From a virus, in IMG/VR virus record IMGVR_UViG_3300023444_000006, positions 1 through 27,059 of that record: 27,059 nt of DNA; one strand, written 5' to 3'. A model generated the notes under the pieces. It was not told the origin of the DNA and made no database searches. It saw nothing but the letters and a program-made list of their open reading frames with translations. Position 1 is the stretch's first letter. The number at the start of each line of letters is the position of its first letter. Shown piece by piece: positions 23,814 to 27,052 of this stretch. The translations under genes and the position numbers were made by a program.

Positions 23814-24125
23814 ATGAAGAGCGTAACCGGTAAGTATTGCATCATCGCGAACAAGGCCTACGGGCTGTATTGCGGCGTGGTCACGAACGTTACACCGTCG
23901 GCCGTCGATGAGACGATGACCGTCGAGATTGCCGGCTGTCGGCATATCGCAAAGTGGTATGGGCGCGGTGGCGGCATCACCTCGCTTGCGCGATACGGTA
24001 TCTGTGGAGACAGTGCGGACCAGAGCAGGATCGGCGCCGCTGTCGATGCTGTTTGCGGCGGAGTCGTGAACATCTTCGTGTGCCACGAGGAATCGCGCGC
24101 GTCGCTGGAGGCATACGGTGCCTAG
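23814..24125 (+). CDS. DUF6948-like small phage protein
   Basis: A 103-aa protein with GAAGGAG 6 bases before its ATG, which favours this start over an upstream GTG/ATG. The sequence YCIIANKAYGLYCGVV...VEIAGCRHIAKWYGRGGGITSLARYGI...VVNIFVCHEESRASLEAYGA matches, from memory, DUF6948 proteins, in which 'Y.ivRt.saGv..G.l........v.l..ar+.w.w.Gaasl..la..G' is typical. These proteins are widespread in phages and of unknown role. It is the first gene of the cassette bounded by direct repeats and overlaps the next gene by 8 bases. Confidence 0.65.
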   Translation: MKSVTGKYCIIANKAYGLYCGVVTNVTPSAVDETMTVEIAGCRHIAKWYGRGGGITSLARYGICGDSADQSRIGAAVDAVCGGVVNIFVCHEESRASLEAYGA

Positions 24126-24684
24126 CTCCGGCTCCGGCTACGGTAGCGGCGACGGCCATGGCTACGGATATAGCTACGGCCATGGTGACGACCATGGCGA
24201 CGGATATGGAGACGGATATAGCGATGGCTATGGCTATGGCTACGGTCATGGCCGTGGCTATGGAGACAGCGACGGCTCCAGCTGCGGCTGCGGCTGCGGC
24301 TGCGGCTACGGCTACGGTAGCGGCTATGGCCATGGCTCCGGATCCGGCTCCGGCGAGTACACGGTAAGCCACGACACACCGGTAGTGGCTTACCACTACG
24401 TCTCGCGTGACGGACGGCTGTTGCGCGAGCACAACGGAGAGAGAGTGATGGTGGGAGTCGGGACGGTGCTCGATGTCGATCCCGACAAACTCAAGATGTG
24501 CAGGTACGGTCTGCACGCTAGTCTCACTCCAGGCGATGCTGCCAAGCATGTCGGCGGGGCAACAGGTCACCTGCTGTGCAAGGTGGGTTGCTCCGGGAGA
24601 GTGATCTACGGAGACGACAAATTGGTGTGCTCGAGGCGAGAGGTTCTGGAGATCCTGTCGTCGTCGTCGGAGGAAAGAATATGA
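24118..24684 (+). CDS. Gly-X repeat protein with DUF7666-like domain, copy A
   Basis: A 188-aa protein from a GTG at 24118 overlapping the previous TAG. Residues 1-79 are an almost perfect alternation of Gly with Tyr, Asp, His, Ser or Cys, including a run of Gly-Cys. The rest is a compact domain: VAYHYVSRDGRLLREHNGERVMVGVGTVLDV, CRYGLHASLTPGDAAKHVGG and KVGCSGRVIYGDDKLVCSRREVLEIL. This pattern, with 'C..GLHAS..p.dAl' and 'gddK.v.s.R..l', fits phage DUF7666-like proteins. Known relatives often carry low-complexity tails, whereas here the repeat is N-terminal. Repeat DNA uses GGN-NAY hexamers, so length can change without frameshift. Function is unknown. Confidence 0.7.
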   Translation: MPSSGSGYGSGDGHGYGYSYGHGDDHGDGYGDGYSDGYGYGYGHGRGYGDSDGSSCGCGCGCGYGYGSGYGHGSGSGSGEYTVSHDTPVVAYHYVSRDGRLLREHNGERVMVGVGTVLDVDPDKLKMCRYGLHASLTPGDAAKHVGGATGHLLCKVGCSGRVIYGDDKLVCSRREVLEILSSSSEERI

Positions 24685-25202
24685 ACGGTGACGGCTACGG
24701 ATCCGGCGACGGTAACGGATCCGGCTCCGGATCCGGCTACGGCTACGGCTACGGCTCCGGATCCGTCTACGGCTCCGGAGCCGGCTATGGCTACGGCCAT
24801 GGCGACGACTATGGCGACGACCATGGCGACGGCTATGGCGACGGCTATGGCGACGGCTATGGCCATGGCTCCGGATCCGGCGAGTACACGGTAAGCCACG
24901 ACACACCGGTAGTGGCTTACCACTACGTCTCGCGCACCGGGCGACTGATGCGCGAGCACCGTGGAGAGAGAGTAACCGTAGCAGTCGGGACGGTGCTGGA
25001 TGTCGATCCTCAGGATCTCAAGATGTGCAAGTACGGTCTGCACGCTAGTCTCACTCCAGGCGATGCTGCCAAGCATGTCGGCGGGGCAACAGGTCACATA
25101 CTGTGCAAGGTGGCCTGCTCGGGGAGAATAATCTACGGAGACGACAAATTGGTGTGCTCGAGACGGCGGGTGCTGGAGATCCTGCCTGGAAGGTTGGGCT
25201 GA
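24681..25202 (+). CDS. Gly-X repeat protein with DUF7666-like domain, copy B
   Basis: A 173-aa protein starting MNGDGYGSGDG, with GGAGGA 6 bases before the ATG. That ATG overlaps the end of copy A. Residues 1-67 are Gly-X repeats with a different order of X residues. The C-terminal domain is a near copy of that in copy A: bases 24882-25184 align with 24355-24657 without a gap at an offset of 527, with several long identical stretches. It ends in PGRLG, whereas copy A ends in SSSSEERI. The changed tail coincides with the direct repeat shared with the clamp gene. The stop overlaps the ThyX ATG. Confidence 0.7.
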   Translation: MNGDGYGSGDGNGSGSGSGYGYGYGSGSVYGSGAGYGYGHGDDYGDDHGDGYGDGYGDGYGHGSGSGEYTVSHDTPVVAYHYVSRTGRLMREHRGERVTVAVGTVLDVDPQDLKMCKYGLHASLTPGDAAKHVGGATGHILCKVACSGRIIYGDDKLVCSRRRVLEILPGRLG

Positions 25203-25795
25203 TGCGAGTCGTTAAGCCAATCGTAACTCTGCTCTCGATCACACCGGACGCCGAGAAACTCATTGAGCGAGCCGGTCGGGTCTGTTACAAGTCCGAGGAC
25301 AAAATCACCGAGGACTCCGCGCAGACGTTCATCAAGATGCTCATCCGCCGAGGGCATGAGTCGGTGCTCGAGCACGCCGTGGCGACCATGCTGATCGTCA
25401 CGGACCGTGGCATCAGTCACGAGATCGTGCGGCATCGGATCGCGTCGTATTCCCAGGAGAGCACGAGGTACTGCGCCTATCGGGACGAGATCGAGGTGAT
25501 CGAGCCGAGCGGTTTGCACGACCCGGGCATGTACGCTACATGGCGCAACGCCATGACCACGGCTGAGAAAAAGTACAAGTTCCTCCTTCTTGAGGTTTCA
25601 TCACAGGTTGCACGGTCAGTCCTGCCCACCTGCACAAAAACCGAGCTTGTCATGACCGCGAACTCCCGCGAGTGGCGACACTTTCTCAAGCTGCGGCTGG
25701 CGAAGGCCGCGCACCCGGACATGCGGATCATTGCGGCGAAGATTCACGATATCCTGGCGCGCGAGGCGCCGGTGGTTTTTGGAGATGTGGGATGA
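25202..25795 (+). CDS. thyX: Flavin-dependent thymidylate synthase
   Basis: A 197-aa protein that makes dTMP from dUMP using FAD, NADPH and methylenetetrahydrofolate. The ATG at 25202 overlaps the previous stop (TGATG). The signature RHRIASYSQESTRYC (residues 77-91) is the ThyX motif. GHESVLEHAV (51-60), ARSVLPTCTKTELVMTANSREWRHFLKLR and AHPDMRIIAAKIHDIL are further family segments. Length is normal to slightly short. It supplies dTTP for phage replication together with the MazG-like protein downstream. Confidence 0.95.
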   Translation: MRVVKPIVTLLSITPDAEKLIERAGRVCYKSEDKITEDSAQTFIKMLIRRGHESVLEHAVATMLIVTDRGISHEIVRHRIASYSQESTRYCAYRDEIEVIEPSGLHDPGMYATWRNAMTTAEKKYKFLLLEVSSQVARSVLPTCTKTELVMTANSREWRHFLKLRLAKAAHPDMRIIAAKIHDILAREAPVVFGDVG

Positions 25796-25823
25796 CCGAT
25801 CGACTCTATAGAGTGAGGGCAAA

Positions 25824-26147
25824 ATGAAACCGAACGAATACCAGCTACTCGCTTACCGTACAGCAACTGGCACAAGGGACGAGCAACTGCTCCACGCCAC
25901 GCTAGGCATTCAGACCGAGGCCGGTGAGTTTGCCGACATCCTCAAGCGGAACATGTTCTACGGTACCGTCTACGATCGCCGGCACGCCGTCGAGGAACTC
26001 GGAGACCTGCTGTGGTACGTCTCTCTTGCGTTGACGTCCCTCGGTATCACCATGGAGAAGTGCATGAAGGAGAACACCAAGAAGCTCAAGAAGCGGTACC
26101 CTGGCGGGTTCACGCACAAGGCGGTGATCGAAAGGACTGACAAGTGA
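25824..26147 (+). CDS. MazG-like nucleotide pyrophosphohydrolase
   Basis: A 107-aa protein with GAGGG upstream of its ATG. The all-alpha NTP-PPase signature is visible: GIQTEAGEFADILKR (E-x-x-E) near residue 30 and AVEELGDLLWYVSLAL (E-E-x-x-D) near residue 55, the Mg-binding pair. The N-terminus MKPNEYQLLAYRTA is typical of single-domain phage MazG proteins. It would hydrolyse nucleoside triphosphates to monophosphates. Suggested roles include adjusting nucleotide pools or the host alarmone level. It overlaps the next gene by 4 bases (GTGA). Confidence 0.88.
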   Translation: MKPNEYQLLAYRTATGTRDEQLLHATLGIQTEAGEFADILKRNMFYGTVYDRRHAVEELGDLLWYVSLALTSLGITMEKCMKENTKKLKKRYPGGFTHKAVIERTDK

Positions 26148-27052
26148 AAACCGTAGCGATCTACAACGAGATCAACCCGTATGCGGCCCAGTGGCTGCAC
26201 AGCCTGTCGGACGCAGGCATGATTGCACTCGGCAAGGTTGTTAGCACCCCCGTGCAGGAGCTCAATCCGGATGACATCACGACACCACAATTCCACGCCT
26301 TCGCCGGAATCGGGATCTGGTCCTACGCCCTGCGTCGGGCAGGAGTCCCGGACGACGCGAACGTCTGGACAGGATCGTGCCCGTGTCAACCGTGGTCGTC
26401 CGCCGGCCGCGGAGGAGGTGCAGAAGATCCGCGCCACCTCTGGCCCGCTTGGTTCCGCCTCATCCGCGAGCATCGCCCTGCAGTCATCTTTGGAGAGCAG
26501 GTTGCGTCACCGTCTGGAAGGGCGTGGCTCGACGCTGTATCGGCTGACCTGGAAGCATTGGGATATGCCGTCGGGTCGGCGGATTTGTGCGCTGCGAGCG
26601 TCGGTGCCCCGCACATCCGACAACGGCTGTTCTTCGTGGCCTACGCCGATGGCGAACGACGCGAAGATGTCCGGGTATTGTCGAGGGAAGCGCAGGAAAG
26701 ACGGATCGAGGCCGATATTCCTGAAGCTTCCGGGAGCCGCTGCGCTCACCGGGTGGGGAACACCGACGGCGGTCGTTTGGGAGGACTCCGTCGAGAAGAA
26801 CCTGTTGCGGAAGATCAAGGCCGGGATGAAGCCAACAGTAACGATGCTACAACTGCAGGTTACACTCGTGGATTCTGGTACCCGCCCGAATGGGTCGGAT
26901 GTGCTGACGGGAAGACGCGCCCTCTTGAACCCGGAACTCAGCCGATGGTTGATGGGAATCCCGAGTTCGTGGAGCAACTGCGCGCCTACGGAAACGCCAT
27001 AGTCGGAGAACTTGCGGCTGAGTTCGCCTCGGTGGCGCTTAGTGTATTATGA
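26144..27052 (+). CDS. C5-cytosine DNA methyltransferase (Dcm-like phage type)
   Basis: A 302-aa protein from a GTG overlapping the previous TGA. The N-terminus (MKTVAIYNEINPYAAQWLHSLSDAGMIALGKV) is the usual phage-type lead-in. Motif I is FAGIGIWSYALRRAG (53-67). Motif IV is GSCPCQPWSSAG with catalytic Cys81. Motif VI is GEQV, in place of ENV, as is common in this phage group. Motif VIII is RQRLFFVA (159-166), and motif X is YGNAIV near residue 280. The enzyme would methylate C5 of cytosine for protection from restriction. The middle (about 175-230) is low in conserved motifs and acts as the target region. A long +1 ORF overlaps it. Confidence 0.88.
   Translation: MKTVAIYNEINPYAAQWLHSLSDAGMIALGKVVSTPVQELNPDDITTPQFHAFAGIGIWSYALRRAGVPDDANVWTGSCPCQPWSSAGRGGGAEDPRHLWPAWFRLIREHRPAVIFGEQVASPSGRAWLDAVSADLEALGYAVGSADLCAASVGAPHIRQRLFFVAYADGERREDVRVLSREAQERRIEADIPEASGSRCAHRVGNTDGGRLGGLRREEPVAEDQGRDEANSNDATTAGYTRGFWYPPEWVGCADGKTRPLEPGTQPMVDGNPEFVEQLRAYGNAIVGELAAEFASVALSVL
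26223..27002 (+). other. Overlapping +1-frame ORF inside the cytosine methyltransferase gene
   Basis: An open frame of 259 codons in +1 to the methyltransferase. From about 26420 its translation reads as a recognisable phage protein type: TSGPLGSASSASIALQSSLESR, GRGSTLYRLTWKHWDMPSGR, ICALRASVPRTSD, SSWPTPMANDAK, KLPGAAALTGWGTPTA and LNPELSRWLMGIPSSW at the end. I recall such 'STLYRLTWK...WPTPTA.D...LNP..SRWLMG.P..W' sequences in phage proteins annotated near Dcm genes. No start or ribosome-binding site clearly serves it. It may be expressed by frameshifting, be a true overlapping gene, or be an annotation artefact. Confidence 0.35.

Follow-up and report, generated by a model that had tools for sequence, protein, structure and literature searches.

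A nested +1 reading frame under purifying selection within a phage C5-cytosine methyltransferase gene

Towards the end of the viral sequence IMGVR_UViG_3300023444_000006 from IMG/VR, of which positions 1 to 27,059 (27,059 nt) form the window analysed here, a methyltransferase gene shares most of its length with a long open frame on the same strand. An earlier reading made from the sequence alone (the sequence-only reading) had recognised conserved-looking phage protein motifs in both frames, and proposed that either both are translated, or one database family is a long-standing shadow of the other. Which of these holds, and how the product of the second frame might relate to that of the first, is the question considered here.

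The locus and its two reading frames

The two frames, termed alpha and beta, were delimited as follows.

26144..27052, + strand: alpha, predicted catalytic subunit of a C5-cytosine methyltransferase, frame 0, 302 aa (phrog_363, PF00145)
26271..27002, + strand: beta, nested +1-frame gene, 243 aa (phrog_1008, stop depletion, dN/dS)

Frame 0 matches phrog_363 at 5e-65 and PF00145 at 4e-17 (profile 58-177), whilst the +1 reading matches phrog_1008 at 9e-23 and phrog_31772 at 3e-12; no family was matched in a Pfam search of the beta protein. These are separate families, all of them labelled 'DNA methyltransferase', which match two frames of one gene, and nowhere does the search output state that two frames of one DNA are involved. 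The alpha gene starts with a GTG at 26144 that overlaps the stop codon of a MazG-like gene, which suggests translational coupling. The latter, encoding a MazG-like pyrophosphatase, and a thymidylate-synthase-family gene (phrog_85) lie directly upstream of the methylase, at 25103-26147.

The +1 frame is open from 26223 to 27002, as the sequence-only reading had it, and would encode 259 aa from the TTG start given by the ORF finder; however, the start is more likely to be the ATG at 26271 than the TTG at 26223. The frame ends with a TAG at 27000-27002. The +1 motifs quoted in that reading, STLYRLTWK, SSWPTPMAND and LNPELSRWLMG, are all present in the window and conserved.

Both frames are already annotated as two genes in Escherichia phage K1ind2, Xanthomonas phage PhiXhv-18 and Paenibacillus phage Gryphonian. 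Loci L001, L005 and L169 have both frames annotated as separate genes ('Mte8-like', or 'DNA methyltransferase' twice), but most other phage records annotate one frame, sometimes the +1 frame alone (L002), such that annotation of the gene pair is inconsistent. A search of the literature on 'Mte8' returned nothing useful.

Stop codons, start sites and selection

Eighty viral loci were fetched using patterns in the N-terminal half of alpha; as these patterns precede the main overlap, the loci were not selected for their +1 frame. An unfiltered scan for stop codons, in which these loci, six phage records and the window were treated alike, covered the 85 loci for which an alpha ORF was found. No +1 stop occurs between the PCQ and GNA motifs in 79 of the 85, at GC contents of 51-71%, and the +2 frame of these 79 has between 3 and 17 stops over the same interval; the remaining six loci have one to three +1 stops. 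Across 75 distinct loci, two +1 stops were observed, against 192 expected when each locus had its own synonymous codons permuted and 427 expected from base composition, whilst the +2 frame exhibited no depletion (767 observed, 693 expected). Alignment of 80 loci places the depletion of +1 stops across codons 44-281, with regional observed to expected counts of 4/35, 0/4, 0/112, 0/67 and 2/50; there is no depletion before codon 44, and an excess at codons 284-300, where beta ends. A flanking control of 176 unrelated ORFs gave an observed to expected ratio of 0.97. The openness of the +1 frame is far beyond chance.

Just upstream of the point at which stop depletion starts is a cluster of ATG codons, at codons 33, 39 and 43, several of them with Shine-Dalgarno-like sites. 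In 72 of 80 loci, the best beta start is preceded by a match of at least 4 nt to such a site, compared to 50 of 310 control starts in the +2 frame. The beta reading begins near codon 33-44. The proposed ribosome binding sequence in the window, and the regions distinguished by the tests of selection, are:

26256..26260, + strand: AGGAG, a Shine-Dalgarno-like 5-nt match 10 nt upstream of the proposed beta start
26450..26986, + strand: strong synonymous constraint on alpha, codons 103-281 (synonymous diversity)
26639..26863, + strand: variable region, an unstructured spacer in alpha and WPTP/target-recognition-like modules in beta (dN/dS, AF2)

Relative to expectation, synonymous diversity in alpha is 0.9-1.0 up to around codon 78, 0.7-0.8 at codons 81-101 and, in well-occupied columns, mostly 0.2-0.6 at codons 102-281, with the tail at 0.8-0.95. 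Certain codons are fixed against usage, P112 being CCT and V120 being GTT in 80 of 80 loci. Among close pairs, the number of third-position changes per first-position change is 3.3 upstream, but only 0.31-0.35 within the variable region and the C-terminal block.

Selection on each frame was estimated through an overlap-aware dN/dS, in which differences are scored by their effect in both frames, from 42 close, non-overlapping pairs drawn from 84 loci, each locus being used once; the region bounds were defined by motif searches. As SS sites are few, the values quoted are based on NN/SN and NN/NS. Between PCQ and motif VIII, dN/dS is 0.22 for alpha and 0.43 for beta; in the variable region it is 1.05 (0.83-1.32) for alpha, which is neutral, and 0.19 (0.15-0.25) for beta; in the C-terminal block it is 0.39 and 0.42 respectively, all these being values from mutually related loci for which the independent pairs and bootstrap correct for kinship only partly. 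This pattern implies that both frames are coding and that the variable region serves beta. The sequence-only reading had specified what would count against translation of both frames: changes synonymous for the methyltransferase that freely introduce stops or non-conservative changes into the +1 frame. Instead, +1 stops are nearly absent, synonymous diversity is low and the beta dN/dS is 0.19-0.43 throughout all tested parts of the overlap; selection on both frames argues for both being translated.

Division of the methyltransferase motifs

The conserved motifs are divided between the two readings in the following manner.

26300..26314, + strand: alpha motif I, FAGIG, residues 53-57 (F53, A54 and G55 invariant, I56 and G57 nearly so, in alignment A7)
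26381..26389, + strand: alpha motif IV, PCQ, with the catalytic Cys81 (invariant in A7; HMMER alignment to M.HhaI)
26495..26503, + strand: alpha motif VI, E118 Q119 V120 (invariant in A7)
26618..26626, + strand: alpha motif VIII, R159 Q160 R161 (R159 and R161 invariant in A7)
26637..26660, + strand: beta WPTPMAND motif (near-invariant W94 and W133 in the +1 alignment)
26925..26963, + strand: beta motif IX-like block, LNPELSRWLMGIP (best-scoring match to canonical motif IX in beta)
26987..27004, + strand: alpha motif X, YGNAIV (G283 and N284 invariant in A7; helix 288-301 confident in AF2)

Alpha has the motifs I, IV, VI, VIII and X and the large-domain catalytic fold of a C5-cytosine methyltransferase. 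Its AF2 model (pTM 0.71) consists of a confident core and motif X helix, and was matched by Foldseek to M.HaeIII and M.HhaI with E values of 1e-8 to 1e-7; the HMMER match to M.HhaI ends at motif VIII. However, a self-sufficient enzyme of this type has a target recognition domain (TRD) and motif IX in the same chain, and alpha has neither: residues 196-245 are both unstructured, with a pLDDT below 50, and neutral, and the C-terminal parts of 67 alpha proteins yielded no motif IX-like block. The statement that the methyltransferase frame carries every motif was therefore mistaken with regard to motif IX.

In beta, W-x-TP blocks repeat in the region where C5 enzymes have their recognition domain, the WPTPMAND motif being accompanied by a second WPTP-type copy, GWGTPTA, at 26751-26771; LNPxxxxWLMGxP comes next. 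This last block aligns without gaps to canonical motif IX, as exemplified by RKLTPRECARLQGFP of bacterial enzymes. LNP..LMG is the best canonical motif IX site in 117 of 143 beta proteins (50/64 and 67/79 in two groups) and in none of the alpha proteins, although single scores are weak, most of those in beta failing to surpass the 99% level obtained with shuffled sequences. The two groups of beta, SRW and WVE, were shown by hhalign to be homologous (E value 1e-29). On this evidence the variable region of beta would be the TRD, and the LNP..LMG block is a putative motif IX. AF2 produced a poor model of beta alone (pTM 0.31), with which Foldseek found no fold match, and a search of PDB sequences with the beta profile gave chance matches only.

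Relatives, alternative explanations and known two-subunit enzymes

A second set of 80 viral loci was fetched using the +1 protein alone, and frame 0 is open through the overlap in all but one of them. In the exception, L148, the +1 frame is intact and frame 0 has a stop 146 codons ahead of the LNP block, which is possibly a loss of alpha or a sequence error. The same nesting is seen in 12 of 12 bacterial loci that have the LNP block, and further bacterial examples exist; when fused forms were sought in 593 bacterial genomes of two phyla, only nested copies were found among those inspected. A different arrangement is seen within the WVE group, where frame 0 of L196, L207 and L208 closes soon after motif VIII and the +1 frame carries motif IX followed by motif X; L239 has a similar C-terminal part, and in L244 frame 0 is closed and motif IX is in the +1 frame.

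In two further loci (L272:108-1160:- and L281:4036-5112:+), a single frame holds both the catalytic motifs of alpha and the LNPxWVEWLMG block of beta. The pattern fits single indels in metagenome contigs, where sequencing error, a broken gene and a real fusion are indistinguishable, hence these were left out of the evidence. In Klebsiella virus KpV2811 (L006, 1390-2739), the beta ORF continues, without a change of frame, into the endonuclease VII-domain gene that follows it, and the joined ORF of 449 aa could be a natural fusion or chance.

It is scarcely credible that the +1 family is a database shadow, conserved only through the conserved methylase DNA. The motif codons of one frame do dictate some residues in the other, and GC-rich DNA has few stops, but this explanation is excluded by the codon-permutation nulls, the +2 frame and the 176 control genes, and of the two readings of the variable region, the methylase one is neutral; furthermore, relatives at 42-45% GC (L207, L244) keep the +1 frame open though their frame 0 is full of stops. 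Stop counts, nulls and dN/dS thus dispose of this half of the choice originally posed. Alternatively, ribosomes translating alpha might undergo a programmed +1 frameshift and so make a methylase that differs at its C-terminus, with no separate start for beta; the fused product would unite motifs I-VIII with the beta C-terminus, and this explanation could draw on the fact that synonymous constraint becomes strong only from codons 80-103. Yet a shift at codon 80-100 would leave codons 44-78 free, whereas +1 stops are scarce already from codon 44, after the ATG cluster (4 against 35 expected); in N15-like loci the +1 frame is interrupted by a stop at codon 65 but offers a start at 93/94, and no common slippery site was noticed in an unsystematic look. 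Because stop depletion begins at codon 44, frameshifting is disfavoured, and we regard it as very unlikely.

Beta might otherwise be made and selected for a role of its own, for instance in anti-restriction or regulation, rather than as a methylase subunit, the overlap with the methylase being incidental. This would suit the failure to detect a fold or Pfam match and the weak likeness to motif IX. It is nevertheless unlikely, as the methylase frame is present at essentially every locus fetched by the beta sequence, alpha is without a structured recognition domain or motif IX, the methylase motif X sits in the beta frame of split relatives, and the division of motifs agrees with those of M.EcoHK31I and M.AquI described in PMC3404938.

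Conservation and purifying selection are thus seen in both frames, with the catalytic fold in alpha and the variable region constrained only in beta. The locus very probably specifies one C5-cytosine DNA methyltransferase in the form of two polypeptides that share their coding DNA. Alpha, read in frame 0 from the GTG at 26144, would form the large domain, which binds SAM, performs catalysis and contains motifs I, IV, VI, VIII and X. Beta would be translated from the same mRNA, starting at an ATG of its own roughly 127 nt inside alpha, and would supply the DNA-recognition region, with its WPTP modules, as well as the motif IX-like block absent from alpha. The active enzyme would be a heterodimer of the two, and its probable role is to modify the DNA of the phage as a protection from restriction by the host. 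This probable subunit relationship between the two products had been overlooked in the sequence-only reading.

The gene for the small subunit of M.EcoHK31I lies within that for the large one, in a different frame, and the window likewise has a nested +1 gene under selection. M.EcoHK31I is a two-subunit C5-methyltransferase (YGGCCR; Lee, Kam and Shaw 1995, cited in PMC3404938), one subunit of which has motifs I-VIII and X and the other motif IX. By that description the division of motifs in the window would be M.EcoHK31I-like, with I-VIII and X in one chain and the putative motif IX in the other, and alpha corresponds to the large subunit in having I-VIII and X without IX. However, M.EcoHK31I belongs to a restriction-modification system, whereas the gene in the window is that of a phage. 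The same paper places the predicted TRD of M.EcoHK31I in the large subunit, whereas the variable region in the window is neutral in alpha and constrained in beta; this mismatch may reflect a wrong prediction for M.EcoHK31I. In M.AquI, a two-subunit C5-methyltransferase (CYCGRG), the large subunit has motifs I-VIII and the small one IX-X and a distal variable region, again according to PMC3404938. Such a split, with IX and X in the small subunit, is seen in relatives L196, L207 and L208; unlike M.AquI, the window keeps motif X in alpha, and its beta is fully nested.

We lean towards a broader interpretation, with less assurance than for the locus itself: a large superfamily of phage and bacterial C5-methyltransferases would consist of nested pairs of genes on one strand, in which the +1 subunit alone holds specificity as exchangeable WPTP modules, and the catalytic subunit reads the DNA of these modules as no more than a neutral spacer. 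Reading in two frames would then be of ancient origin, and the TRD of M.EcoHK31I would have been wrongly assigned in the literature.

An out-of-frame protein inside a phage methylase gene is also known from the ShiLan domain, a hidden HNH endonuclease within a mycobacteriophage methylase (PMC11855218). That domain is a mobile insertion with a patchy distribution (PMC11855218), whereas the window-type +1 gene is integral to nearly every member examined. No likeness to such a hidden HNH endonuclease was seen in the +1 protein.

The nested two-frame methylase design has apparently already been described for M.EcoHK31I, and is apparently widespread in phages and bacteria; what is new here is the breadth, the mapping of the start, and the evidence for the recognition region being in beta rather than alpha. 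The double annotation across phage databases is resolved, in that two 'DNA methyltransferase' families are two frames, neither being a shadow. The group also represents a well-sampled, deeply conserved instance of nested same-strand genes with selection measured per frame. Annotating or cloning only frame 0 of such orphan methylases would, these data suggest, yield an inactive half-enzyme, and beta is a testable place for specificity.

Further upstream in the window, at 24118-25202, are two adjoining paralogous ORFs, each of which has a long Gly/Tyr/Ser/Asp-rich repeat (GSGYGYGDGYG...) followed by a conserved domain, VVAYHYVSR..GRL.REH.GERV..VGTVLDVDP..LKMC.YGLHASLTPGDAAKHVGG. This pair looks like a recent tandem duplication.
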